Below are positions 2,864 to 25,538 of a stretch of DNA of 45,822 bases, piece by piece. The notes under the pieces were generated by a model. That model was not told the DNA's origin. It did no database searches and saw only the letters and a list, made by a program, of their open reading frames with translations. A program made the position numbers and the translations under genes. The stretch comes from a virus. Location: positions 1-45,822 of the IMG/VR virus record IMGVR_UViG_3300042569_000235; one strand, written 5' to 3'. Position 1 is the first letter of the stretch; each line of letters opens with the position of its first letter.

Positions 2864-5800
2864 TTATACTGGACAAGTTGGTGGAGTTACATTCTGTGCT
2901 GTTAAATTAACCAATCCATAAATAGGTGTTGGTGTAACTAAGTAATCTTCATAACCCTCTACGTTAGTAATTGGTCCACTTGCATATATCAATCCTCCTG
3001 CTGTTACATCACATACGTTAAATCGTATAATGTTTCCTGAACCTGATACCCACTCACCACGTATGGTGTAAGGTAACTCGCTTATCAATGGGTATATAGT
3101 TCCACTTTGAGCACTTCCTGCTGTAGATGTAATACTTAATAATTGAGATGCAACATTATTAAATATTGTTAATCCTCCTCCTGATTGATTACCAACTCTC
3201 CAATCTAATCTAACTGTTGTTGGTGCAGCTGTGGTAGTTGTTGTAGTAGTAGTAGGAGTCCCTGTTGTAGTAGTTGTTGTAGTAGTTGTACAATCTGTAC
3301 AAGCTGCTGTTCCTTGTAGTATACAAGGAGAATCTGTTACCACTGCTGTACCAGATAGGTTACAATAGTATATCACTGTTGTAGTAGTAGTTGTGGTAGG
3401 AGAAGGAATCTCTGTTACAGCCACTGCTGAGATATCACAACCTTCATTTAATCCTGAATAGAAGAAATTGTTTTCTCCTATGTAGAAGTTAGGTATGTAT
3501 GTATGAAAGCTTACCCAACTCTTAGTATTAAAGTTGAAGGATACTGTCCATGATTTATTACAGAAATAGTTTAAGTCTGTTATTTCAACATATCTCTTAA
3601 CTGAAGTGTTTCCAGCTACAGGTTGATTTACATAAAACTCTTTAGTCAACTCATCATATAATACGTTCTTATCTGGCTGAGGGATATAGTCTAACTTAGT
3701 GATAATCACTCTATCATACTTACTATCATACACACCATGAAGACCAATGTTTTTAAAATGATTATCTATGTCAACATTAGGATAGTATCTTAATATCTCA
3801 AATGACAAATGATCTGTAAAGAATCTGTTAAGACCAGAACCATATCCAGATATGTCAGTTGCTTGGGTACCAGTTATTAAGAATATCTGTCCTCTCTTAG
3901 CATCTACAGTTATTTGTCCTTGAGGTATCTTAAGTAAAAACTTATTCTGAGATCCTACATATCCAAGATCTGTCTCAGCATAATCTATAGGAGGTGGTTC
4001 AACACTGCTGAATAATGAAGGATTACCTAAATAAGCTGCTTGAGGATTGCTTGTATTCACTGTTAACATGTTACCATATAACAATGTTTTATTCTCAAAT
4101 CTAGCTAATGTTGCTCTGTTCTGTATACCATCCAAAGATATTAGATTGCCATAGTTCTGAGGAAAATCAAAGAAACTTATTGGACGATATATCAACCAGC
4201 TATTTATTCTGTTATCAGAATAACTTTCTTGTCTATCAGAGTATATTGCTCTGAATGGAAAGTATGTATAACATAATTGTTGTTTCCAATCTGAAGGCAA
4301 ATGAGAAAAGAAATTCTCTGTGTTTTGCTTAGAAAAAGTATTATTGTAATAGTATGTATTATCAAATGTAATAGGCACCACTGATTCTTGGAACCAAGTA
4401 TCAGGAATACCTGAGCTTACGTGTGGGTAGAAGTCACCTTCTAAGTTATTAAAGGCTTGACGTAAGTCTACATTGATAGAAGTTTCTACATAGTAATAAG
4501 GAACACCATAAGCAAATGTATACATCTTACCATCATATACATAGTTTTGGTTACCAAGTAATGTTGTACCTGGAGCAGGTGTTGTAGAAGAAGTAGTAGT
4601 GGTAGTATTAGGATCATCTACTTTAGTATCATTAGGACAGTCTAGATAATGAGCTTTTACTGATATAATATTCTTCATCAAAGTACCACCTACATAATAG
4701 TCATACAATACAGATCTTGCTGAATACCAATATTGTGGGTATGCTACATTACCTATCTCATCATAAAATATATCAGAATCATCTGGAGCTCCCACTCTAT
4801 TATCAATAAAGAATGGTAGTTTAGTTTTGAATCCAAACTTACCAATAAATGTATCTCCACCAAATACTACCTCAGAATCATTAGCAGGCAATGCTCCAAA
4901 TATTCTTTGGAATCCTGTATCAATAGTTTGATATGAATATATCTGTCCCCATTGACCATTGTTAATTGTCTTTATAGAACCATAATATGAAACAACCTTT
5001 ATAGGTTCTTGAAACTCAGGAGTTCCACAATGTCCTCTTTGTGAAAGTGTAAATCTTGAATTATCACTAATTTGACTTGTTCCTGCTACGACAAGAGAGT
5101 TAGTTTGGTTAGGGTATGGTAAAGGTGCTACAAATGCACCATTTCTATTTTCAATACTTTTAATGTAAACAGATGATTCTCTATTCCAGTTATTAAGATC
5201 AAGATCATCTCCTACGTTCTGTACACCAGGGAATACGTATTGATATCTATCAAGCTCCCTTTGTTTAATTCCTTGATTGTTTTGAATATCTGCACTATAG
5301 TCATAGCTAGATATAGAGTTGAAAGAATATGCAAAGTTTCTTCTAGTAGCACCATTTACATATATCTGTAAATAAGTTTGGTATGCTGTAAACATTGCTG
5401 TGGCACTAAATCCACCTAGATCAGCAATCTTTTTACTAGAGTTCAATGCATCTATTTGTGCTTGTATAGTAAGAAGTCTATACATTGAATGTTTCTTCAC
5501 TTGAACAAAGTGAGCTCTACCAGCTCCAAATAATACACTCTCTAGCTTAAGAACAGATCCTAATGTAGGTTGTCCAAAAGAAGTTTCTGGTGAATTAAAT
5601 ACTTGTCTATATGGAGATTGAGCATTATTAAATCCATCTAATTGTTCAGGAAAACAATTCATGTTTACACTACTTCCTGAAACTATTGTAAATTTATCAC
5701 AACCTGATACAAACACAGGAGTACCAATTGAATTAACTGTTGCTGAAGTGTTTCTGTCTACAACTATAAATTCTGTAACTAATGTAACAGGATTTTGATA

Positions 5801-7969
5801 ACTAAAAGTAGCAGATGGAAAACCCAGACGTACTTGTACACTTATTATAAAAGTTTCAGGTGTAACATTTTGAAATGTAGCAGCACCAGTATTTACAACA
5901 GGAAGCGTAAGAGAACACACTTCAGTGGTTGCTGTAGTAAAGTCAAGACTAGTTACTTCTCCTGTATTACAGTTTGTATATTGTAAAGCACCATTAACAG
6001 TAGCTGTAACTTTGTATGTATCACATTGAGACATATATGAATTACTATCCTGAAGTAAGAATGGATCTTTAGCAAGATCGTTGTAAGGATAGTTAGGATA
6101 GTAGTATTCTGTTTCTTCTCTTTTATATTTACCTACATTTCTTAATATACCTTTAGCAATAATAGATTTGTTTGTAGATCTATTACCTCTAACTATTTTA
6201 AATCCAACAATAGCATCTTTCTCAGCATCTGTTAAGCTAGAAGATTGAATAAGAAATCCTACTTGTTGTACATCTATCTTTACACCTATTGGATAAATAG
6301 CGTTAGATGATTGCATCACTGGTTCTATTTGACCTCCAACATATGTAATAGGAGGAGTCTCAAAATAAGGAGATACTAATACATCAGGAAATTTGTGATG
6401 TCTAATTGGTTCACCAGCAAGATCTCCCCATACATCTACATTACAAGGATATGTATCTGTGGATTCCCAATAAGAAAAGTCTCCAGATTGATATGGATAG
6501 GCTTCTCCTATTTTACCAGCATCTCCTACAGGAACAGGATATGTAATTAATACACTACCTGTATTATATATTTTCCAATAAGGAGCTACAGTTCCTTCTC
6601 CAATAAAGTCAGCATTAGTATTATACACAGGAGTTAAATCAGTAGAAAGTGCTGATCTACCAGGGATATGGAAACCATCTGTTTGTTTACCATTATCTAA
6701 CAAGAACACAATCTCAAAGGCATACACTTCATCTCTTAAATAACCTCTAAGATTAGCAGTGTAAAAACCATCAGCATATGTATTGTTAGCTGGTAACTTA
6801 TATGTCTCCCATTGAAGTTGAATTTGACTAGCGATGCTTTGATAGTTAACTCTATCAATAGAAGTAAGATTGTCCCAAACTATGACATCTTGTACGTTTG
6901 TAAGGTCTTGAGCAATTTCATAGTAAGGAAACTTCTCAAGTATATCAGCAAGACTTAAAGGAATATTAGTTAAAGCTTGACCTGTATAAGTGATTGTTCT
7001 GTCTTTATCTTGGATATTATAAGTACCCATAAGTTCTACAGATGTACCACCATTTATAGTTTTAATAATAGCTACATTAAAATATTGGAAGTATCCTGTA
7101 ATATCTATATTATTTATATTTATTACAATAGATTTTCCTACAGAATATTGAAAGTCAGGTGTTGTTATTTCTGTGTTTGCAATAGATGTAGGATTAGTAA
7201 CAGAGTAGTAGGATGTATATGCATCACCTGAAGCATTACAATATTGAATAGCAAACTGATATGTACCAGCTTGTATGTCTCCACCTACAACAATATCAAT
7301 AATGTCCAAGCTAGGAATGCTGAAGTTAGGTTGTACTTTTAACTTATTACAATCAAGAACAGGAGTGATTTGTGGATCACAGTTTTGATCACTAAGATAT
7401 GCAGTGATGTATGGAACTTGATCAATGTTGATAAATCTTCTTGGATTAAGACCATCTGTCCAATATACTTCAGTGCTACAGTTAGTAATCTTGTGTACAG
7501 CTTTATGAATAGGATAGTCAATGTTAAAATTCAAACAAGTTGAATTTGCACAAACAGTTAAGTCTGTATCAGGGATTGGAGTACACAATGTACGATATAC
7601 ACAATCATTGTTTTCCATATATCCTATCTCACTTCCTCCTGTTTCAGGATTAGCTAAGAAGAATATGTGTTTGTTTTTCTCTTGTATGAAATGTGTTCCA
7701 ATAAGTTGATAGCCTTCAGGAAACTCTAGACAAGCTTCATTACCAGGCTCGTTTTGATAGTTTACAGAGTTAGCATCAAAGTTTTCTAATGCTGCGTTTA
7801 GTGCATACGAAAGTTTTCCCTTCTGTACTTGATTTACAGAAGAGTCCATATCTAGTCCAATTCTTCCAAGATTAAATTCTTGTTTTATGTTAGATGGTCC
7901 TTCTTGGTTATCTGCCATATCTTGAGCTTCTGTTTGGTAATTCATATTGTGCAAAGCGTTGTAAGTCAT
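2864..7969 (-). CDS. Giant tail protein (crAss-like tail stabilization/muzzle-type candidate)
   Basis: At 1701 residues this is the largest gene in the window. It follows the tail-ring and IHF-like genes, where crAss-like phages carry a very long tail-stabilization or muzzle protein. The N-terminus has a FNLGRIGLDMD stretch followed by beta-rich sequence. Poly-threonine linkers lie near residue 1130 (TTTTTSSTTPAP) and twice more near the C-terminus, separating a short cysteine-bearing segment and a last domain of about 110 residues that begins at RLDWRVGN. The start is uncertain: the ATG used here overlaps the previous gene by 62 bases, and an internal ATG at 7918 (MADNQEGPS) would cut that to 11. 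The terminal domains may be exchangeable binding modules. Confidence 0.75.
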   Translation of the reverse strand: MTYNALHNMNYQTEAQDMADNQEGPSNIKQEFNLGRIGLDMDSSVNQVQKGKLSYALNAALENFDANSVNYQNEPGNEACLEFPEGYQLIGTHFIQEKNKHIFFLANPETGGSEIGYMENNDCVYRTLCTPIPDTDLTVCANSTCLNFNIDYPIHKAVHKITNCSTEVYWTDGLNPRRFINIDQVPYITAYLSDQNCDPQITPVLDCNKLKVQPNFSIPSLDIIDIVVGGDIQAGTYQFAIQYCNASGDAYTSYYSVTNPTSIANTEITTPDFQYSVGKSIVININNIDITGYFQYFNVAIIKTINGGTSVELMGTYNIQDKDRTITYTGQALTNIPLSLADILEKFPYYEIAQDLTNVQDVIVWDNLTSIDRVNYQSIASQIQLQWETYKLPANNTYADGFYTANLRGYLRDEVYAFEIVFLLDNGKQTDGFHIPGRSALSTDLTPVYNTNADFIGEGTVAPYWKIYNTGSVLITYPVPVGDAGKIGEAYPYQSGDFSYWESTDTYPCNVDVWGDLAGEPIRHHKFPDVLVSPYFETPPITYVGGQIEPVMQSSNAIYPIGVKIDVQQVGFLIQSSSLTDAEKDAIVGFKIVRGNRSTNKSIIAKGILRNVGKYKREETEYYYPNYPYNDLAKDPFLLQDSNSYMSQCDTYKVTATVNGALQYTNCNTGEVTSLDFTTATTEVCSLTLPVVNTGAATFQNVTPETFIISVQVRLGFPSATFSYQNPVTLVTEFIVVDRNTSATVNSIGTPVFVSGCDKFTIVSGSSVNMNCFPEQLDGFNNAQSPYRQVFNSPETSFGQPTLGSVLKLESVLFGAGRAHFVQVKKHSMYRLLTIQAQIDALNSSKKIADLGGFSATAMFTAYQTYLQIYVNGATRRNFAYSFNSISSYDYSADIQNNQGIKQRELDRYQYVFPGVQNVGDDLDLNNWNRESSVYIKSIENRNGAFVAPLPYPNQTNSLVVAGTSQISDNSRFTLSQRGHCGTPEFQEPIKVVSYYGSIKTINNGQWGQIYSYQTIDTGFQRIFGALPANDSEVVFGGDTFIGKFGFKTKLPFFIDNRVGAPDDSDIFYDEIGNVAYPQYWYSARSVLYDYYVGGTLMKNIISVKAHYLDCPNDTKVDDPNTTTTTSSTTPAPGTTLLGNQNYVYDGKMYTFAYGVPYYYVETSINVDLRQAFNNLEGDFYPHVSSGIPDTWFQESVVPITFDNTYYYNNTFSKQNTENFFSHLPSDWKQQLCYTYFPFRAIYSDRQESYSDNRINSWLIYRPISFFDFPQNYGNLISLDGIQNRATLARFENKTLLYGNMLTVNTSNPQAAYLGNPSLFSSVEPPPIDYAETDLGYVGSQNKFLLKIPQGQITVDAKRGQIFLITGTQATDISGYGSGLNRFFTDHLSFEILRYYPNVDIDNHFKNIGLHGVYDSKYDRVIITKLDYIPQPDKNVLYDELTKEFYVNQPVAGNTSVKRYVEITDLNYFCNKSWTVSFNFNTKSWVSFHTYIPNFYIGENNFFYSGLNEGCDISAVAVTEIPSPTTTTTTTVIYYCNLSGTAVVTDSPCILQGTAACTDCTTTTTTTTTGTPTTTTTTTTAAPTTVRLDWRVGNQSGGGLTIFNNVASQLLSITSTAGSAQSGTIYPLISELPYTIRGEWVSGSGNIIRFNVCDVTAGGLIYASGPITNVEGYEDYLVTPTPIYGLVNLTAQNVTPPTCPV

Positions 7970-9347: not shown

Positions 9348-10084
9348 TAACTAGTTGGTTTAGCATTAGAAGCTTGACCATCTATACCATCAAATGTCAT
9401 GTCTGTTTTAATGCTAAAGTAAGTAGATAATAGTTTTTGAGATGTTAACTCCAATACTTGTTTCTCCAAGTAACCAGGACATCCAAACTCTTTATCTAAA
9501 GGGTTCATACAGTAATCTTCATTGCTTACTAGAGGAGTGGGACCACACGCACAGTCTGATGGATATAATATATCATTAGGAATATCTTCTTCAAAGAATG
9601 CAGCAATTCTCACTGATTGTAAACTAGGATTATTAACATATAAATATCCACCATTTGCTATCCAGTAGTATTGCTCTTTCCTAATGATAGGCAGCTTTAA
9701 TAAATTTAAGTATCTGTTAATTGTGATCTCTTTAAATCTTCTTCCTTTACCACCCATAGCGTTGATAGAATAAACACCTTGGATAAGATATTGATAGTTT
9801 CCTTCACTGATGCGAGGAAGTTTATATTGGCTTCTTGCTACATTGCAAGGATCTACATATTCACAGCAATCAGAGATGGGAACCTCTATCATGCTTAAAC
9901 AAGGAAGCGTCTGGAATACTGTATCAGTAGCCCAAAGCTTTCTAAGGTTTGTTTCCCTCTTTACCAATAAAAATGTATTGTTCTTAATCTCAGACGCAAC
10001 AACCCTATCAGTGATAAGGTTATCTGTTGTTAGCAGTTTGTGCATTGCACGAACGTCTGAAACCATTTTACGTAATGTAGCCAT
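9347..10084 (-). CDS. Virion protein, probable tail/neck ring component
   Basis: The protein has 245 residues and lies between the metallophosphoesterase and the IHF-like gene, overlapping both neighbours by one base. The N-terminus is helical (MATLRKMVSDVRAMHKLL), the centre beta-rich with an INAMGGKGRRFKEITINRYLNLL stretch. The C-terminus is a helix (YLEKQVLELTSQKLLSTYF) ending in a serine/threonine-rich tail. Its size and plan resemble the 243-residue protein at 20156-20887, and both may be ring proteins in the neck. No catalytic motif is seen. The structural role is inferred from context. Confidence 0.6.
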   Translation of the reverse strand: MATLRKMVSDVRAMHKLLTTDNLITDRVVASEIKNNTFLLVKRETNLRKLWATDTVFQTLPCLSMIEVPISDCCEYVDPCNVARSQYKLPRISEGNYQYLIQGVYSINAMGGKGRRFKEITINRYLNLLKLPIIRKEQYYWIANGGYLYVNNPSLQSVRIAAFFEEDIPNDILYPSDCACGPTPLVSNEDYCMNPLDKEFGCPGYLEKQVLELTSQKLLSTYFSIKTDMTFDGIDGQASNAKPTS

Positions 10085-11334
10085 TATAAATACTGTTTGA
10101 ATATATTTGTTATTCCATCTTCCCCATCTATTAGGAAGCCTGTCACTTCTGCTTTGGACATAGTGTGACCATTCTTGTCATCCCATAGACTCTTAGAATT
10201 AGAGAATGCTGGGATTTGATAAAACTTAATACCATTGAAATCATGACTCACTTCATGATGTTTGTCTCCTGTGAAGATATAGAAGTTCTGATGGAAAGAC
10301 CACCCTTCTCTATATTCTATTGGAAACAATGCAGCAAGCTTTGCAGGCTTAATAGCATCTCCATGATTAAACATCAATGCTGATCTACCATAGCTTATGT
10401 ACTTTCTATACTTAGGAGAACAATCAAATGTTAATCTCTCTGTATTTCTAAAGTAAGTCTGTAACCAATTAACCATATGCCATCCTACAAACTCATCATG
10501 ATTACCTGCTACATACACAACATTTACATTCTCAGCATATTGTAATAACATTGTAATCATCAACACCTCGTGTCCACAGATGTATTCAAAAGATGTTTGA
10601 TATGTGTGAGTGTTTGTTTGAGGAGTGCCCTTTGTGGTCATTCCTGTAAACTCACTGTTAAATTCATCAGAACCAATGATATATGTAATTTGATCTAAGT
10701 TATTTGAAAGCTGTGCTTGACTAGCAACCACCTCTATCTTATACATGATGTTAGCCAACCTATCTACAATATTGTTATTACCATCTATATCATACTTATT
10801 CAAATGGGAGTCTTGTTTGTTAATCACTAGCATACCATTTGGTTTGCCAAAATCAACCTTAGGACTCATAACTTCTTGAGACACAGGCTTATATGAATCT
10901 AAAAAGTCTACAAACGCATCTTGAAAAACTTGTTCTGTAGACTTCTTCCCTAACCATGCTTTGACTTGCCAATGGGGTGTTTCTCCATTTCCCCAATAAT
11001 TCTGTACGTACTTTGTGATTTCCCACTTATCTGTGTCAATCTTACACTTTATTATGAGCTCATCTAAGCTCTTGATTTCATCCTTTGTATTGATGACAAT
11101 CTCTCCAGTTCCTTTAAGGATGTCTTCTTCAAATCTTACTATTGTTTCCTCTAACTCAGAAATGTAGTTACCCAGTTCTGCTTCTTGTATAATACTTTCT
11201 CTAGTTCTTAACTCTTTTAATAACTCATCAACATCTGATTCTTCAATTCCAAGCTTATCAGCGTAGAATTTTTTACTCTTTTTCCAGTGCAAAATCTCTT
11301 CTAGCTGGTTTAGCAATGCTTGATTCTCAGGCAT
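10084..11334 (-). CDS. Calcineurin-like metallophosphoesterase
   Basis: The 416-residue protein carries the metal-ligand motifs of this superfamily in order: D175-x-H177 (KQDSHLNKY), D223 in GSDEFN, GNHD at 277-280, H324 in FNHGD, and a last His pair in GDKHHE near 357-361. Residues 1-55 look like a small helix-turn-helix (KFYADKLGIEESDVDELLKEL), followed by a coiled-coil-like stretch to about 100. The enzyme probably hydrolyses phosphodiester or phosphomonoester bonds; the substrate is unknown. It heads a tail-gene run (10084 down to the left edge) behind a Bacteroidota-type promoter. It might be packaged, process DNA, or act on host nucleotides. Confidence 0.8.
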   Translation of the reverse strand: MPENQALLNQLEEILHWKKSKKFYADKLGIEESDVDELLKELRTRESIIQEAELGNYISELEETIVRFEEDILKGTGEIVINTKDEIKSLDELIIKCKIDTDKWEITKYVQNYWGNGETPHWQVKAWLGKKSTEQVFQDAFVDFLDSYKPVSQEVMSPKVDFGKPNGMLVINKQDSHLNKYDIDGNNNIVDRLANIMYKIEVVASQAQLSNNLDQITYIIGSDEFNSEFTGMTTKGTPQTNTHTYQTSFEYICGHEVLMITMLLQYAENVNVVYVAGNHDEFVGWHMVNWLQTYFRNTERLTFDCSPKYRKYISYGRSALMFNHGDAIKPAKLAALFPIEYREGWSFHQNFYIFTGDKHHEVSHDFNGIKFYQIPAFSNSKSLWDDKNGHTMSKAEVTGFLIDGEDGITNIFKQYL

Positions 11335-18328: not shown

Positions 18329-18886
18329 TTAAGGAAAATTAATTATATAGTTGTTTCCTGTACAACCACATTGGTTTGCAATAAAATAATCTAATTGTCT
18401 GTTAGCTTGCATGTATAATTTGTTGGCTGTATCAATAGCACAGTTATTAGCTGCTGCTATGGAGCCTTGAATCATAAAGTTTATGCTGCTTAAAACCACT
18501 TTTGATTGGGTTCTAATAGCTGAGTCACATTCCATCATGTCAAGTTTCATAAATGCACTGTCAAACTTTTCTTGTATAACTGCTGTACGCATTATGTTTT
18601 TTTCTACATAGTTTACAGTAGAGGGAGCAACTGAATATTTCATGAAATACACACCATCAGGTAAAGGAGCTGTATCAGGAAAAACAGTTAAACCCAATAT
18701 AATTGAGTTATAAGTATTTATTTGTTGAACATTAAAAGGAATAGCAACAGGAGAAGTGTAACCAGGTACAGTGATTTGCATAGTGGGAGCACTAACAACT
18801 GGTGGATCTGTATCATATACAGAAGTATCAGCTATTGCTAATGTCTCAGTGGTGTAAGTATTAATTACTAAAAAATCTAATGTCAT
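18329..18886 (-). CDS. Structural-block protein, unknown
   Basis: The protein has 185 residues. The N-terminal 90 are beta-rich (LDFLVINTYTTETLAIADTS, PDGVYFMKYSV) and the C-terminal half is helical with cysteines (MECDSAIRTQSKVVLSS, NQCGCTGN). It is the first gene after the terminator at 18898-18942 and the first of the fibre run. The domain is not recognised. It may be a fibre adaptor. Confidence 0.65.
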   Translation of the reverse strand: MTLDFLVINTYTTETLAIADTSVYDTDPPVVSAPTMQITVPGYTSPVAIPFNVQQINTYNSIILGLTVFPDTAPLPDGVYFMKYSVAPSTVNYVEKNIMRTAVIQEKFDSAFMKLDMMECDSAIRTQSKVVLSSINFMIQGSIAAANNCAIDTANKLYMQANRQLDYFIANQCGCTGNNYIINFP

Positions 18887-18897
18887 GATTTTTTTTA

Positions 18898-18942
18898 ATA
18901 AAAATGCCAGAGGATTTGAGATATCCTCTCACCCTCTGGCAT
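18898..18942 (-). terminator. Rho-independent terminator after the 386-residue gene
   Basis: The minus strand reads ATGCCAGAGG, a 19-base loop, then CCTCTGGCAT and TTTTATT. The ten-pair stem is perfect. It lies 26 bases beyond the stop at 18969 and 12 bases before the next start, so it should cap or weaken read-through into the fibre genes. Confidence 0.85.
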
Positions 18943-18968: not shown

Positions 18969-20129
18969 TTAAGGGATCAAAGTAGTTGTTGTTGAAGTGC
19001 TAGGCCATACAGTAGTTGTAGTACTAGTAGTAGTAAGACAAGTTGTGTCACCTGCAACAGTTCCTAAACCAGCTTCTAAGATAGCTTCGATAGCAGTTGT
19101 TTGGTTGTTAGGAACAGCAATGATTACAGTTGAATCTTCCATGATGTAATCACCCCATTGGTAAGCAGATTTATCATACTCATTGAATTTGATGTAATAC
19201 AAATCATAGATTGTACCATCAGTTACCCAAGACTCAAAGTTCTCGTTGTAACCATTCATTCTGTATAAATGCTTTAAGTAACCAGCTTGGTAGCTATAGA
19301 AGTTCTTTTCTAATTGTTGAACCTCAGCAGAAGTACCAGCAGGATAGTTAGAACGTTGAGTGATTACAGGTTGAGCAACTCTGTTACAAGGATCGTCAAC
19401 AATAAAGTCAGCAGTTGTAGCTGGACCAGAGAAGATGAAAGTTCTAAAGTAGAATCTGTCATACTCCCAAGGGAATGCAGCAACGTCACAAGGTTGTCCA
19501 TAAGCAGTCAAAGGTTTACCAGTGATACGTAACAACGCAGATGAATCGTTACCAATTCTTTGGAACTGATAGAACTGAGTCAAATAAATGTTGTCTGGGT
19601 TATCACCAGGTGCATGCTCCTCTAACTTGATGATTAATGAATCAATCAAAGCAGGAACATCAGTATCTGTACAAGGATCTCCACCACAATCACAACAAGG
19701 TGCATTAACAGTTACACTACGAGTGAAACCATTGAAGTACAATGTGTTTAAGTAGCTAGAGAAACCACGTAAAGTTAATGTAACAATTTCACCACATTTT
19801 ACAGTGAAATCAACTACATCAGTTACTTGGTTTACAACAGTAGCACAGCCATTAGACTTGTACCATTCAGTTACGTTAGTCTTACAAGAAGATCCACCAG
19901 GACATCCAGAGATTTTGTCTGAACGCTTAGAACCTTGTAAATACGTGTTTGTTCTACCTTGAGCTACATAAAAGTAAGGGGAACCAGCAATGTTACCAGC
20001 TGTGGCAACACTATAGTCACTTAGGAATATTCCTACTTGACCTGCTGTTAAGTCTTGTGTTGATCCAGAGCTAGGTAATGTGTTTCCTACTGGTACAACA
20101 AAGAGGGTGGTTAGGGAAAAATCAGCCAT
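18969..20129 (-). CDS. Abundant virion protein with C-terminal poly-Thr tail
   Basis: The protein has 386 residues. The N-terminal 150 are beta-rich, with a cysteine cluster (CCDCGGDPC near 150). The middle contains EYDRFYFRTFIFSGP. The C-terminus has YDLYYIKFNEYDKSAYQWGDY and ends in TTTSTTTTVWPSTSTTTTLIP, so the threonine tract here is a true tail with nothing after it. Codon use is more selective than in neighbouring genes and resembles the capsid gene. It is followed by a strong terminator. Both suggest high expression, as for a capsid-decorating or head-fibre protein. Confidence 0.65.
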   Translation of the reverse strand: MADFSLTTLFVVPVGNTLPSSGSTQDLTAGQVGIFLSDYSVATAGNIAGSPYFYVAQGRTNTYLQGSKRSDKISGCPGGSSCKTNVTEWYKSNGCATVVNQVTDVVDFTVKCGEIVTLTLRGFSSYLNTLYFNGFTRSVTVNAPCCDCGGDPCTDTDVPALIDSLIIKLEEHAPGDNPDNIYLTQFYQFQRIGNDSSALLRITGKPLTAYGQPCDVAAFPWEYDRFYFRTFIFSGPATTADFIVDDPCNRVAQPVITQRSNYPAGTSAEVQQLEKNFYSYQAGYLKHLYRMNGYNENFESWVTDGTIYDLYYIKFNEYDKSAYQWGDYIMEDSTVIIAVPNNQTTAIEAILEAGLGTVAGDTTCLTTTSTTTTVWPSTSTTTTLIP

Positions 20130-20155: not shown

Positions 20156-20887
20156 TTATTCGTTTGTTTGTATTCTATAAATTGAGCTTTGAACAGCACT
20201 TTGGTTTTCTGTATACATTGCCAAGTTTTGTACTGTCAAATCTAATAGTTCATCTTCTAGGTATAGTTCAAGTTCACAATCCTGATCGAAAGATGGTAAG
20301 CCATCAAGCATGATATATCCTGTCTTATTTATATATTGAGGATATCTCATGTAAGAAATATATATATCCTTAGGTATAAATGTACCATCTGTAAATACAG
20401 AGATCTCATCAGAAGATATAAAGTTGAATGTTTCTTGGTATTCAAAAGAAGGTCTGTAGTGGACATTGTTTAAGCAAAACTGTAAGTCACCATGCTTAGC
20501 AAGATCTCTATTAATCCAAACCTTTCTATCTATACATCTTCCTTTATCAGCTAATATATAACTATCTATATAGAACATATACTGAGGTACAAGAAGATGG
20601 ATATTTGCAAACCATTGATTTAGTTCAGCATTCTTCAATACTAGAGGAAGAGGTTGGTGGTTGTAGGGCTGTACAAGACTTTGTAAGTCTTCGTAACGCT
20701 TCTTAAACGCATCCATACCTAATCCAGAAACTGTACTAAACCCATCAACCTTTTGCTTTATCAGCTTAATTTGAGCTTCATTCAATGCTAAGATCTTATC
20801 TTCTACAGGAATCTCTTGATGCTCATTAGTGGATAGTTTATTTAGTTTCTGATCAATCTTATATAATAAACTATCTACTGGGATCAT
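20156..20887 (-). CDS. Virion neck/ring-type protein
   Basis: The protein has 243 residues. The N-terminal 90 are helical (IPVDSLLYKIDQKLNKL, ILALNEAQIKLIKQKVDGF), a beta middle follows (FNFISSDEISVFTDGTFIPKDIYISYMRYP), and a final acidic helix reads LELYLEDELLDLTVQNLAMYTEN. The plan parallels the 245-residue tail-block protein. It overlaps the previous gene by four bases (ATGA). In crAss-like phages this position after the capsid gene holds conserved virion proteins. A head-completion or neck-ring role is inferred. Confidence 0.65.
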   Translation of the reverse strand: MIPVDSLLYKIDQKLNKLSTNEHQEIPVEDKILALNEAQIKLIKQKVDGFSTVSGLGMDAFKKRYEDLQSLVQPYNHQPLPLVLKNAELNQWFANIHLLVPQYMFYIDSYILADKGRCIDRKVWINRDLAKHGDLQFCLNNVHYRPSFEYQETFNFISSDEISVFTDGTFIPKDIYISYMRYPQYINKTGYIMLDGLPSFDQDCELELYLEDELLDLTVQNLAMYTENQSAVQSSIYRIQTNE

Positions 20888-21849
20888 ATTGCAGCTATTT
20901 TTTTACCTTTCAATTTACCTTCTAAAACTAACAATTGGTCTTGGTTATCTTCATCTGCTAAGAACTTCACTAATTCATCTTCATCAGCAGCTATTTCAAA
21001 TTCACCTTCATAGACTCTTCCATTAGGTCTAACTCTATAAACTGAATGAGCAACAGCTTGTTTAACCAAGTCTTTAATATGGAGTAAGTTTTCTTTCATA
21101 TCTGCAAATCTGTTGAATACCTCAATTGGATTCAAACCTTGATATTTGCCATTCTTGAATTCAGTTTGTTTCAATATGTTATCCACTTGATTGTAAACTG
21201 ATTCTTCTTTGGAATCATCTGATACTGGAAGACCAAGTAGACGAGCTACCTTCTTCTTCTTTTCAGGAGTCATACTATCAAACTTAACAATTGCTTTGTT
21301 AATAAGTTGTTTCTTCTTAAACATCACCTTGTTCTCAATATCATCATCAGCAACGTAATACTGAATATCAGCAGGGAATTCACCACGCTCCCAAGCTTGA
21401 TAGCTAGAAGCAATTGTTGGATGAACTCTCAACCATGAGAATGCTAGTTCTTGCAATGGCAATGTAAAGTCAAAATAGTTATCACCATCTAACAACTTAA
21501 CTGGTTGAACATGCAATGAATCATCAACAGAAGTTGATAAGCCATAATTCCAGAATGTAGAACGAGGACCTAAGTCAGCATTCAATGCTGATTCAAGTTT
21601 TTCCTTTAACTCTGTTACTCTTTCAGTTTCTAATTCCCTTTCTAAAGGGTCTTGGATTCTTCTAATGTAAGCAGCTTTAGGATCTAAGCCTGTTCTATAC
21701 TGTCCATCAAGTTCTTTATAAGGATACTTAAATACACCTGTTCCAGGGATTCTTGTATAACCTTTCATAGCCAGTCCACCTTGCATTGTTTGCAATTGTG
21801 AGTTGTTGTACTCTTTCTTAATAGTAGAGATTTTTCCTATCTTACCCAT
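20884..21849 (-). CDS. Conserved post-capsid virion protein
   Basis: The protein has 321 residues and is mostly helical and charged. Features are a basic N-terminus (MGKIGKISTIKKEY), a middle with TPEKKKKVARLLGLPVSDD, and an acidic C-terminal domain (GEFEIAADEDELVKFLADEDNQ). It is the first gene after the major capsid gene and is separated from it by a structured 170-base leader that may control its level. No known enzymatic motif is present. Gene order suggests a capsid or head-tail component. Confidence 0.65.
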   Translation of the reverse strand: MGKIGKISTIKKEYNNSQLQTMQGGLAMKGYTRIPGTGVFKYPYKELDGQYRTGLDPKAAYIRRIQDPLERELETERVTELKEKLESALNADLGPRSTFWNYGLSTSVDDSLHVQPVKLLDGDNYFDFTLPLQELAFSWLRVHPTIASSYQAWERGEFPADIQYYVADDDIENKVMFKKKQLINKAIVKFDSMTPEKKKKVARLLGLPVSDDSKEESVYNQVDNILKQTEFKNGKYQGLNPIEVFNRFADMKENLLHIKDLVKQAVAHSVYRVRPNGRVYEGEFEIAADEDELVKFLADEDNQDQLLVLEGKLKGKKIAAI

Positions 21850-21877
21850 ATGTAGTTAATTTTTGTTGGTTTATTTG

Positions 21878-21935
21878 CAGATGGTTCCCATCGAAGGGAA
21901 CACTGTAAGGCATGGAGCCTGTACATGTCCATCTG
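21878..21935 (-). ncRNA. Putative three-way-junction RNA element in the capsid 3' UTR
   Basis: On the minus strand, CAGATG (21935-21930) pairs with CATCTG (21883-21878). Inside are two hairpins: TGTA-c-AGGC with GCCTTACA around a five-base loop (21925-21904, one bulge), and GTTCCC with GGGAAC around a six-base loop (21901-21884). All three stems are perfect apart from the single bulge, and almost no bases are left unpaired. There is no U tract, so it is not a plain terminator. Its function is unknown; it could be a processing signal, a stabiliser or a protein-binding site. Confidence 0.5.
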
Positions 21936-21947
21936 TGTTAGAAGACT

Positions 21948-22013
21948 CCCCCACTGGGATGTGGGGGGGAATTCTTCTTTGTATTTGTAGAGCGTAGTTC
22001 TAACCTTGCTCTA
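21948..22013 (-). other. Two hairpins just after the capsid stop
   Basis: On the minus strand, TAGAGC/GCTCTA (22013-21988) and CCCCCAC/GTGGGGG (21967-21948) form six- and seven-pair hairpins between the capsid stop and the three-way junction. The second is G/C-only in an AT-rich genome and lacks a T tail. It would be a strong roadblock to 3' exonucleases. Confidence 0.55.
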
Positions 22014-22019
22014 GGTTTT

Positions 22020-23573
22020 TTAGAATTGTGGTATTTCCTCAATCAAGACTGTACGAGACAAATCTTCAATGAACACATCACAACGATCTTTCATCCAAAT
22101 CTCATATCCAGGGAATTTGTTCGCAGAACTCATACCTTGAGACTTAGCAAAGCCTAAGTGGTGACGAGTACCATCGATATAACCCCAAGTCATAGAAGGT
22201 GCACCCTTCATACGTACTTCACGAATATTGTTGATCATAGAACCATCAGACATTGGAGATACATCAAACACCATAAATACTGGAGTTGACTTCTTGTTTT
22301 GTCCAAATTCTAAGTTTGTTTGAGGTAAGTCTAATTCTTTCAAGTGAATTAATTCAACACGACCAGTCTCACGAGTTACCATTGCATCGAATGCAAAGTT
22401 GTAAGTGATATGTTGACCTTCACCTTGCATGTATCTGTTACCAGAATCAGCCATGAAAGTAAGACCAGAATTCAAAGCATCTGTTTTTAAAGCTTGTTGG
22501 AATACGTCAAAGCCAGCTTCATTAGTGTACATTTTAACACGTCTGTCTTTAACATCCACACGTCTGTAGAATAAGTCACCAAATACAGAACGAATCAAGT
22601 TAGCTGTAAACTCACCACGATTGTATTGTACTAAGTTACCATTGTTACGCATTCTGTGATATACACCAGCAGAAGTACGCTTTAATTCTTGCTTAGAACC
22701 ATTAGTCTTCACAGTTCCAGGACGAGCCCAGATCATACGCTTAACTTTTAATTCTAACATAGACTTACGCATCCAGAACTCAATAAATGGTTCCCACTTA
22801 ACATCGTTACGAGTTAAAGGTAATTGGTTACGTCTTTGAGGAGCATATACTAAGATGTCTAAAGGTTTGCCAGAAGCATCTCTCATCATCTTGTCATCAG
22901 CCCACTCAGTAATTTTGTGCTCATAACCATATGCAGAACCTAAAGATTCAAACATTGTGATTTGCTCACCCAAACGAGGAAGACCTAATAAGTCTTGATC
23001 GAATTCACCAATAGCAGCATCAACTAACTCTAATTCAACACCCACTTGCAAGAAGATAGGGCTTACGAAATCAACAGTTGGGTTGTCACTTACTAAGGTA
23101 ACAGTGTATAAGTATCCAACATTCCAAGGAACTGGATCTTTTACTACGTAGAAACGTGGACCATATTGACGTGTACCAACAGATACAATTGCGTTCTTAG
23201 AAAACTCATTAGTGTCAACGATGATTTGAAACTCTTGTCCATCAATACCAGGCTTGTTTAATTCCTGAGTTGTAGTTGGAACGTCAATGATTTTTGGGAA
23301 CTTGTAAGGTACTTGTACCTGCCATTTCCAAGCATCACTATTATTGTCGATATAGTAAGGTGTGCTCTTGTTAATCATGTCCAAGAAGTCATTACTATAA
23401 AGAGAACTCTGAGTGTACAAGCTGATGATTTTTTTATCATAATCAGCAGGCTCAGTTGAGTGAAAGCTCTCTAGATGGTTCGAGTCAGTCAATTTACCTA
23501 CTGCACGCTTGTCCATAGAAGCTACTCTAGCATAGGTAAAACCAGTTAAACCTGGGATTGTTTGAATTGCCAT
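22020..23573 (-). CDS. Major capsid protein (crAss-like)
   Basis: The protein has 517 residues, the usual length for the HK97-fold capsid protein of crAss-like phages. The sequence begins MAIQTIPGLTGFTYARVASMDKRAVGKL. It contains a WARPGTVKTNGSKQELKR loop, GEFTANLIRSVFGDLFYRRVD, and the C-terminal GAPSMTWGYIDGTRHH. It lies downstream of the portal and a scaffold-like gene, as expected. Codon use is regular and the 3' UTR is highly structured, fitting very high expression late in infection. The assignment rests on position, length and overall character. Confidence 0.85.
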   Translation of the reverse strand: MAIQTIPGLTGFTYARVASMDKRAVGKLTDSNHLESFHSTEPADYDKKIISLYTQSSLYSNDFLDMINKSTPYYIDNNSDAWKWQVQVPYKFPKIIDVPTTTQELNKPGIDGQEFQIIVDTNEFSKNAIVSVGTRQYGPRFYVVKDPVPWNVGYLYTVTLVSDNPTVDFVSPIFLQVGVELELVDAAIGEFDQDLLGLPRLGEQITMFESLGSAYGYEHKITEWADDKMMRDASGKPLDILVYAPQRRNQLPLTRNDVKWEPFIEFWMRKSMLELKVKRMIWARPGTVKTNGSKQELKRTSAGVYHRMRNNGNLVQYNRGEFTANLIRSVFGDLFYRRVDVKDRRVKMYTNEAGFDVFQQALKTDALNSGLTFMADSGNRYMQGEGQHITYNFAFDAMVTRETGRVELIHLKELDLPQTNLEFGQNKKSTPVFMVFDVSPMSDGSMINNIREVRMKGAPSMTWGYIDGTRHHLGFAKSQGMSSANKFPGYEIWMKDRCDVFIEDLSRTVLIEEIPQF

Positions 23574-23608: not shown

Positions 23609-24889
23609 TTATTGAAACCAAGAATTGGGTTTAGTTGATGGTTTAGATTTCACTGAACTCTTCTGGGCTTGTCTGGCAACTTCACCAAATAATTCATTAG
23701 ACTTTTTGGTGATACCTGTCTTTTGAATAGTAGATAATGTAGGATCTTTCTCCATTATCTTCATGATCAACGCAAGCTTTACTTTGGTTGCATGATTCTC
23801 AGGACGTTTCAGCTCCAGAATTGTACGATCAAAATCAGTGAGAGTCTCACCTGAATTTGTTTTGTACTTGTCTGTTACTAGGAAATCTTGTAGTTCACCA
23901 GCTAATTTAGGGTTAATTGGTATGCCATCAAATTCTTTAGCTTTAATCTTCTCTTGTAAAACGTTGTTTACATTTTGATGATATTGTTGCTTGATGGCTT
24001 GTTGCTGTTGTAATTGGACCTCTTTTTGTTGCTCCATTTGTTGAAGCTTTTGGCCTTCTTTCTTTATTAGGACCTTATGATGTTTAGCAGCAACACTTTC
24101 TAAATCACCATAGTTTTTTAATCTTTCTACTTCTGTTATAACATCTTCAGGCTCAAATCCTTGATCAGTCAAAGCTTGTTTAATAACAGCCACTTGATTG
24201 TTCTCTTGAGTTAAGTCCATTTCAGCAAAAGATTGGATTTGGTTAAATGCACCAAAGTAATCTTTAGGATGAACTCCTTTTACAAATATGGCCTCAAATG
24301 CTTTTTGATAATCTTCTCCATGTTGACCAATAAAATTATCTACAATTTCAATAGCTCCTTTTTTCTTTTCTGCTTGGAAGCGTTCTAAGAATGCTTCAGG
24401 AGTATCTATTGCAGTTTCTTCTTCTTCGTCTTCTTTAGAGAAAACACCTAGTTTGAAAAGGTCATTTGATAATGCAGTGAATTGACTCTCAGGAGCTCCT
24501 TCTTCATCATCATCATTATCTTTACTATCTTCTTGATTATCAGCAGGTTGCGTAGCTTTCTTAGCTGGTGCAGTTGCTGGTTTGTCATTATCTTCACCAT
24601 CCTCATCATCATCTTCACCATATAAAAAATCTTGAATCCCTTTAACAGGTTCGTCTTTCTTATCGTCTGCAGGTTCTGCAGGATCTGGGATAGCTTGTTG
24701 TTTAGAAGTAGTTTTCTTTGTTGGAGCAGGAGCAGGTTCATCTTTGATATCCTGAATGTCATCAGGATTAGATGTAGCACTTTCAGGAGACATTAAATCA
24801 TTTAATAACTCTTGGTTACCCATACCCATGTCCATAGTATCTTGAATACTAAAGTTGCCTATTTGAGGCATATCTAGATTTTCAGCCAT
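23609..24889 (-). CDS. Acidic scaffold-like protein preceding the capsid gene
   Basis: The protein has 426 residues. Residues about 40-145 are extremely acidic and low in complexity (GEDDDEDGEDNDK, NDDDEEG), broken by alanine/proline/lysine stretches. The C-terminal 280 are helical, with a glutamine-rich coiled coil (KLQQMEQQKEVQLQQQQAIKQQ) near 275-300. A disordered, acidic, coiled protein directly before the capsid gene is typical of scaffolding or inner-capsid proteins. No protease motif is seen here. It is preceded by a promoter. Confidence 0.7.
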   Translation of the reverse strand: MAENLDMPQIGNFSIQDTMDMGMGNQELLNDLMSPESATSNPDDIQDIKDEPAPAPTKKTTSKQQAIPDPAEPADDKKDEPVKGIQDFLYGEDDDEDGEDNDKPATAPAKKATQPADNQEDSKDNDDDEEGAPESQFTALSNDLFKLGVFSKEDEEEETAIDTPEAFLERFQAEKKKGAIEIVDNFIGQHGEDYQKAFEAIFVKGVHPKDYFGAFNQIQSFAEMDLTQENNQVAVIKQALTDQGFEPEDVITEVERLKNYGDLESVAAKHHKVLIKKEGQKLQQMEQQKEVQLQQQQAIKQQYHQNVNNVLQEKIKAKEFDGIPINPKLAGELQDFLVTDKYKTNSGETLTDFDRTILELKRPENHATKVKLALIMKIMEKDPTLSTIQKTGITKKSNELFGEVARQAQKSSVKSKPSTKPNSWFQ

Positions 24890-25007: not shown

Positions 25008-25538
25008 CTAATCTAATTTGTTAAGAAAATTGTCATTTATAAGTCTATAGCTTCTTATTGGAGCAAGATCTGTAAGCGTAACTTGTTGAACTTCAACTCC
25101 CCACTTGCGTGCTTCCACCCTAACTTTCTTTGTCAAAATATTATCAAGTTCAGAATCTGTACATTCTTCTAAGGTCATAGACATAATAATATTTTTTATA
25201 ATACTTTGAGACATATCTGACAGGGCATCCTGTGCGTCATAGACTTCTAATAGGAATATCTTAACATCTGCTATCTTATATTTGACAAGTCCTTTGACTA
25301 CAATGTTTTGCTTATCTTTTGTATATAAAGATTGAGCATCAAGACTAAGTGTTGTAACTACTACATGCTGATCAATTGCCTCATCAAAGAAAGGTATCTT
25401 AAAGTGTATACCTGGTAATAGCACTCGATTAAACTTTCCAAATCTAAGGAGTACAGCTTGTTCATAGTCTCTGATAATGATGAATGGTAGAATATGATTC
25501 CACCATTCAATCAATACATCAATTAGTTTATCAAACAT
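25008..25538 (-). CDS. SPFH/stomatin-prohibitin family protein
   Basis: The protein has 176 residues. A hydrophobic N-terminus (WWNHILPFIII) could anchor in or lie on the membrane. The body matches the SPFH domain throughout: EQAVLLRFGKFNRVLLPGIHFKIPFFDEAID (split here at residues 26-56), then TLSLDAQSLYTKDKQNIVVKG, YKIADV, the TLEECTDSELDNIL segment and ARKWGVEVQQVTLTDLAPI. The long C-terminal coiled coil of flotillins is absent. Its start overlaps the portal stop by one base, so it is co-translated with the portal. Cellular SPFH proteins scaffold membranes and regulate FtsH-type proteases; either role could serve the phage. The role is unknown. Confidence 0.85.
   Translation of the reverse strand: MFDKLIDVLIEWWNHILPFIIIRDYEQAVLLRFGKFNRVLLPGIHFKIPFFDEAIDQHVVVTTLSLDAQSLYTKDKQNIVVKGLVKYKIADVKIFLLEVYDAQDALSDMSQSIIKNIIMSMTLEECTDSELDNILTKKVRVEARKWGVEVQQVTLTDLAPIRSYRLINDNFLNKLD

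Follow-up and report, generated by a model that had tools for sequence, protein, structure and literature searches.

What is the folded RNA that lies directly behind the capsid gene of this phage, at the position where the phage must set the amount of its capsid mRNA? The question was addressed in a DNA stretch of 45,822 nucleotides, IMG/VR record IMGVR_UViG_3300042569_000235, here called the window. An earlier note on this DNA had described a 58-base three-way junction RNA preceded by two more hairpins at positions 21878-22013, and both the range and the base count are exact.

Genome setting of the module

A Pfam Crass_capsid match of the 517-aa capsid protein, together with PHROG matches of the portal and terminase, marks the window as the record of a crAss-like phage. 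Even the closest named phages are distant: the capsid protein has 26% identity to that of Leptolyngbya phage Lbo-JY46, and the terminase 39% to that of Lbo-JY46 and 31% to those of Cellulophaga phages phi4:1 and phi17:2. No similarity was found between the window and named phages at the DNA level. The late genes are on the minus strand, and the module RNA therefore reads from 22019 down to 21850, with the following parts in the order of reading.

22020..23573, minus strand: major capsid protein gene, 517 aa (Pfam PF23898 Crass_capsid, E 1e-27; PHROG major head protein, E 2e-33), the upstream neighbour of the module
21988..22013, minus strand: HP1, a small hairpin behind the capsid stop codon (MFE fold), variable in sequence and shape among relatives
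about 21940..21978, minus strand: HP2, a long C/G-rich hairpin (AGAAGA / CCCCCAC ... GUGGGGG / UCUUCU) with no U tract (MFE fold)
21878..21935, minus strand: three-way junction RNA, 58 nt (MFE fold and covariation; match of covariance model R2 at 21876-21937, 59.9 bits, E 1.5e-11)
21929..21935, minus strand: P1 5' strand CAGATGG, acceptor-like helix (97.3% of cells paired; two-sided changes in 5 of 7 pairs)
21900..21928, minus strand: P2 hairpin, of variable size among relatives, with a conserved bulged G at 21903
21886..21899, minus strand: P3 hairpin UCCC-UUCGAU-GGGA, T-arm-like, with its loop at 21890-21895 (94.6% of cells paired; two-sided changes in 4 of 4 pairs)
21878..21884, minus strand: P1 3' strand CCATCTG, then CAAATAAACC
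21850..21877, minus strand: A-rich leader ending AACTACAT, ahead of the next start codon
20884..21849, minus strand: next late gene, 321 aa, with no assigned function (PHROG 16383, unknown function; no match in Pfam)

An A-rich leader of this kind (AAACCAAATAAA...AACTACAT or ACTATAT), which lacks a Shine-Dalgarno sequence, recurs before the minus-strand genes 23609-24889, 20884-21849 and 10084-11334. As similar leaders precede other genes, positions 21850-21877 were taken as a general late-gene leader that lies outside the RNA. Elsewhere in the window, a Band 7/SPFH-domain protein (Pfam E 2e-27) is encoded at 25008-25538 on the minus strand, adjoining the portal gene. A hairpin followed by a T-rich tail (GGCATTTTTA) at 18909-18929 (minus), between late genes 18969-20129 and 18329-18886, is a candidate ordinary terminator.

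Fold of the module

Folding of the minus strand placed HP1, HP2 and then the 58-nt three-way junction between the capsid gene and the next late gene, reproducing the arrangement described before. The minimum free energy was -53.2 kcal/mol compared to -30.9 +/- 4.1 for shuffled sequences (z -5.5), and none of 200 shuffles folded as well. The plus strand folds too (z -3.6), as is expected of inverted repeats. HP2 is followed by AACACAGATGG, so the remark in the earlier note that there is no T tract holds. Its single bulge needs a small correction: in the window P2 carries both a bulged C and a bulged G, and only the G is kept in relatives.

Conservation and covariation

A capsid search of viral contigs gave at least 598 relatives. 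The best 80 of these (identity of at least 95%) were read, and in them HP2 and the junction lie behind the capsid gene. More divergent relatives were added via the capsid of L206 (88%), a mixed alignment, and L299 (L numbers are our handles for loci). L206 is contig JACIXZ010000023.1 of a Tissierellales (Firmicutes) MAG; it is the sole capsid relative from a genome collection and may be a misbinned phage contig.

RNAalifold recovered the same structure unaided from 51 distinct sequences, and 20 of its 31 pairs have a change on both sides in at least one place. When the named structure was counted in these 51 close relatives, two-sided changes were found in 24 of 35 pairs, and there were 254 compensated cells compared to 70 in shuffles, a comparison that is inflated by the kinship of the sequences. 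The junction alone, in 69 diverse members, had two-sided changes in 19 of 21 pairs and 358 compensated cells compared to 105 in shuffles, with the same inflation. Slid controls retain this relatedness, yet they score far lower: paired cells fall from 93.9% to about 50% in the 51-member alignment, and from 91.8% to about 40% for the junction in the 69 members. The HP2 helices had 98.8% and 91.8% of cells paired in the 51-member alignment, with two-sided changes in 7 of 14 pairs; in divergent relatives other long hairpins stand in for HP2. The junction is a genuine structured element kept by compensatory change, its shape being retained in hundreds of related phages whose letters differ there, and the change in relatives that the earlier note had proposed to look for proved extensive in both alignments.

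Single copy, insertions and distribution

With the R2 covariance model, the junction was found once in the window and once in each of 16 among 20 relatives' records longer than 100 kb, with no additional copies in the window or in any of the 20. By their locus coordinates, the 16 single copies all sit behind the capsid gene. Conservation, covariation and this single, constant position together give good support to the proposal that the RNA is real, structured and linked to the end of the capsid gene. The four records without an R2 match are those of Lbo-JY46, L324, L299 and L337, and the last three carry variants (below). The junction is absent from Lbo-JY46 and its kin, Flavobacterium phage FpV4, crAss001 and phi17:2, and its absence from these distant relatives indicates that it is lineage-specific.

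Other genes have been inserted beside the module in some relatives. HNH-type endonuclease genes lie downstream in L024, L034 and L079, between the junction and the next gene, where they start behind the leader AACTACATATGGG; in L344 one lies upstream (about 5550-6010), between the capsid gene and the junction. L039 (7728-7802), L049 (5340-5414) and L379 carry an intact tRNA-Met gene a few bases downstream of the junction. The HNH insertions on either side leave the module intact, suggesting that it is a free-standing unit which belongs to neither coding region. A main role as the leader of the next gene was rejected, since the HNH insertions part the two in three genomes and the A-rich leader precedes other genes as well.

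The HNH genes and tRNA-Met genes inserted right beside the module could also point to an element that acts at the level of DNA, such as a site at which homing endonucleases and tRNA genes land, with inverted repeats extruded as cruciforms. An insertion site, however, needs no compensated three-way junction with a conserved loop and bulge, and the insertions are rare relative to the presence of the junction. The conservation of the loop and bulge favours RNA over a DNA cruciform, although a cruciform would covary too, and a DNA-level role is considered very improbable.

Constant features of the junction and likeness to tRNA

Among relatives the junction is about 49 to 60 nt long, and its unchanging parts are P1 (6-10 bp), P3 (3-6 bp) and the P3 loop. 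P2 ranges from an 11-nt hairpin in L371, where P1 and P3 persist, via 16 nt up to about 30 nt. A bulged G is found on the 3' side of P2 in most members, and a GA/UC step in P1 is invariant (69/69). A protein-coding role was rejected, as the lengths do not change in steps of three and a small ORF that starts in P1 of the window has no kept frame in relatives.

The P3 loop is UUCGAU, UUCAAU, UUCGGU or UUUGAU in nearly all of 114 parsed members, where the parse required UU[C/U] in the loop and so partly imposed those letters. Position 4, which the parse did not impose, is a purine in 108/108 six-nt loops, and position 5 is A in 83/108. The 51-member alignment, whose members were chosen without regard to the loop, also has an invariant UUC there. 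P1 and P3 form one helix stack, like the acceptor and T arms that make up the top half of tRNA, while the third arm shrinks to as little as 11 nt. The 3' strand from the loop to the end of P1, which in tRNA spans 12 nt between the T loop and the acceptor end, is 12 or 13 nt long in 103 of the 114. This geometry and the loop are features additional to those in the earlier note. Minimal substrates of tRNA processing, such as those of RNase P, share this plan of an acceptor-like stem and a T-arm-like hairpin, with the other arms cut down to a single filler hairpin.

Two of the variants strengthen the link to tRNA. In L324 the slot of the junction, behind an HP2-like hairpin, holds a tRNA-like cloverleaf called by ARAGORN (5646-5716); its T loop has 7 nt, and its anticodon loop is abnormal, with 6 nt. 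The shape in L299 is that of a mini-tRNA, AACTTGAT-TATTCAGGTATGGA-GTGG-UUCAAAU-CCAC-A-ATCAAGTT, in which UUCAAAU is a canonical 7-nt T loop. In the third variant, L337 (64% capsid identity), P1 and P3 persist: AGGAGTT-CAGCTTGACTG-TA-AGAA-UUUGAU-UUCU-A-AACTCCT. A decayed P1 may remain ahead of the L324 cloverleaf.

In other respects the junction departs from tRNA. Compared to the 7-nt UUCRANY loop with A58, its loop is mostly the 6-nt UUCR(A/G)U, with canonical 7-nt loops in L299 and L324 only, and the equivalent of A58 is G in about a fifth of parsed members. No tRNA genes were called in the window, L324 being the only relative with a called tRNA-like gene in this slot, and the Rfam tRNA and mascRNA models gave no match to the junction of the window or of L206 at E values up to 10. 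Rfam 15 as a whole gave no matches in the window at curated cut-offs and nothing credible at permissive thresholds, and a literature search, with most subscription journals outside its coverage, found no description of this element. On its architecture we file the junction as a putative tRNA-like processing or 3'-end kind of element, and not as a member of the tRNA family.

The hallmarks of an RNase P substrate are largely missing. The tail is mostly CAAA, with an encoded CCA in few members, and there is no +1 G; P1 mostly begins with C or A. A 3' RCCA and a +1 G help bacterial RNase P but are not strictly required. The GA/UC step and the bulged G of P2 are kept more strictly than RNase P would need, a hint that the partner could be a more specific one. 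The invariant GA/UC, the loop UUC and the bulged G look like a recognition code, and they would be explained best by an RNA that binds a protein specifically. Such a protein, of phage or host, could be for instance a late regulator, a polymerase modifier or a virion protein, and it would control translation, or transcription beyond the site. That crassviruses supply an RNA polymerase of their own (cf. the annotation of crAss001) also counts towards this explanation. The HNH insertions in L024, L034, L079 and L344, however, break the adjacency to one neighbour with the junction intact, which speaks against a close link with the start of the following gene, and as an account of the whole module a protein-binding site appears unlikely. 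Should the partner be other than RNase P, a binding code is still defined by the bases conserved in the loop, the bulge and the helices.

The earlier note had also allowed for an independent RNA. The junction is compact, stable, conserved and in single copy, and its tRNA-like ends could be matured on both sides to release a small trans-acting RNA. No conserved promoter was noticed ahead of it, and it has no conserved unpaired stretch long enough for pairing with a target; release as a trans-acting RNA is regarded as unlikely.

The slot behind the capsid gene

In crAss001 (L369:9815-9895) the capsid gene is followed by AAAAGGGGAGGGAAAUUCUCCCUCUCCUUUUUCUUUUUU, and in phi17:2 (L368:3915-4060, minus) by AAAAGCAGAGACUAACCUCUCUGCUUUUUAAUU, both with the shape of an ordinary U-tailed terminator. 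Terminators at the same position in these phages indicate that the slot is the expected site of capsid mRNA ends. The slot in crAss001 and phi17:2 thus holds a stable hairpin directly behind the capsid stop codon, as in the window, but theirs is U-tailed and comes without the junction; this lineage fills the slot with a terminator-like hairpin that has no U tract, followed by the three-way junction. A plain intrinsic terminator was rejected for the window, as HP2 is followed by AACACAGAUGG with no U tract and was not listed on the minus strand in a terminator scan.

The strongest rival is a module that acts in the same slot without being cut. HP2 would be a weak terminator or 3' barrier that makes mRNAs ending with the capsid gene, and mRNA ends would be stabilised by the junction, as a rigid roadblock or cap. 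This would fit the U-tailed terminators of crAss001 and phi17:2, as well as the junction-less L326, L338 and L343, in which an HP2-like hairpin is followed by a U-rich tract. The lower stem of HP2, UCUUCU, resembles a weakened U tract, and almost every member has a long hairpin of one sequence or another ahead of the junction. A mere roadblock, however, needs no invariant UUC loop, bulged G or constant spacing of 12-13 nt. Few T follow the hairpin where the junction is present (mean 1.5 in 8), though this comes from an automated scan that is too noisy to rest on. On balance the uncut module is a doubtful explanation.

Proposed mechanism and comparison with known systems

The reading that we prefer is that the junction is a tRNA-mimic punctuation mark in a late polycistronic mRNA, probably cut by host RNase P, and we give this a probability of a little over one in three. 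P1 stacked on P3, with the loop UUCRAU, would mimic the acceptor stem and T arm of tRNA, and P2, the small third hairpin, would stand in for the D and anticodon arms. The cut, on the 5' side of P1, would be made by a tRNA-processing enzyme of the host, most likely RNase P. It would give the capsid mRNA a 3' end just beyond HP2, whose long hairpin could resist 3' exonucleases, and the downstream mRNA a 5' end enclosed in P1. Confidence in RNase P as the enzyme is held down by the missing encoded CCA and +1 G and by the invariant bases that the mimicry does not explain.

The earlier suggestion that the RNA may stabilise or process the capsid message is favoured in its direction by the position, the long hairpin in front, the U-tailed terminators at the same place in other crassviruses and the tRNA-like architecture; recognition as a tRNA mimic, cleavage and an effect on mRNA stability are inferred. 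It is possible, and we suggest it tentatively, that a widespread environmental crAss-like lineage swapped its post-capsid terminator for a minimal tRNA mimic and so punctuates its late mRNA via the host machinery that matures tRNA. The RNA is in any case a well-supported family, absent from Rfam, in a large group of environmental relatives of a very abundant phage order; if the tRNA-mimic reading is true, it is also a compact case, open to direct test, of an operon shaped by tRNA processing that a virus has borrowed.

Phage RNAs are known to be processed by the host enzyme that matures tRNA: RNase P processes the phage M3 RNA, the phage-derived C4 antisense RNA and the T4 gene 32 mRNA (PMC11143913). 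A parallel to these is proposed here, but they differ in sequence and genomic setting, and none is described in that paper as a conserved punctuation behind a capsid gene.

The proposed cut also has likenesses outside phages. In mascRNA and menRNA a small tRNA-like fold ends a long transcript, and the cut by RNase P makes the 3' end of the upstream RNA, which is protected by structure. A tRNA-like fold at a transcript end, with an upstream RNA that has a structured 3' end, is what is proposed for the phage. The mascRNA and menRNA systems are, however, eukaryotic and nuclear, with a fuller cloverleaf and a 7-nt T loop, whereas the phage RNA has P1, P3, one variable arm and a 6-nt loop, and its cut is a predicted one. 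In animal mitochondrial transcripts tRNA folds separate the mRNAs and direct their release; those are full tRNAs that also serve translation, whereas the phage element would be a stripped-down mimic without an anticodon arm. If the tRNA-mimic reading is true, the module is the equivalent, in a bacterial virus, of tRNA punctuation in mitochondria and of 3'-end formation of the mascRNA type.
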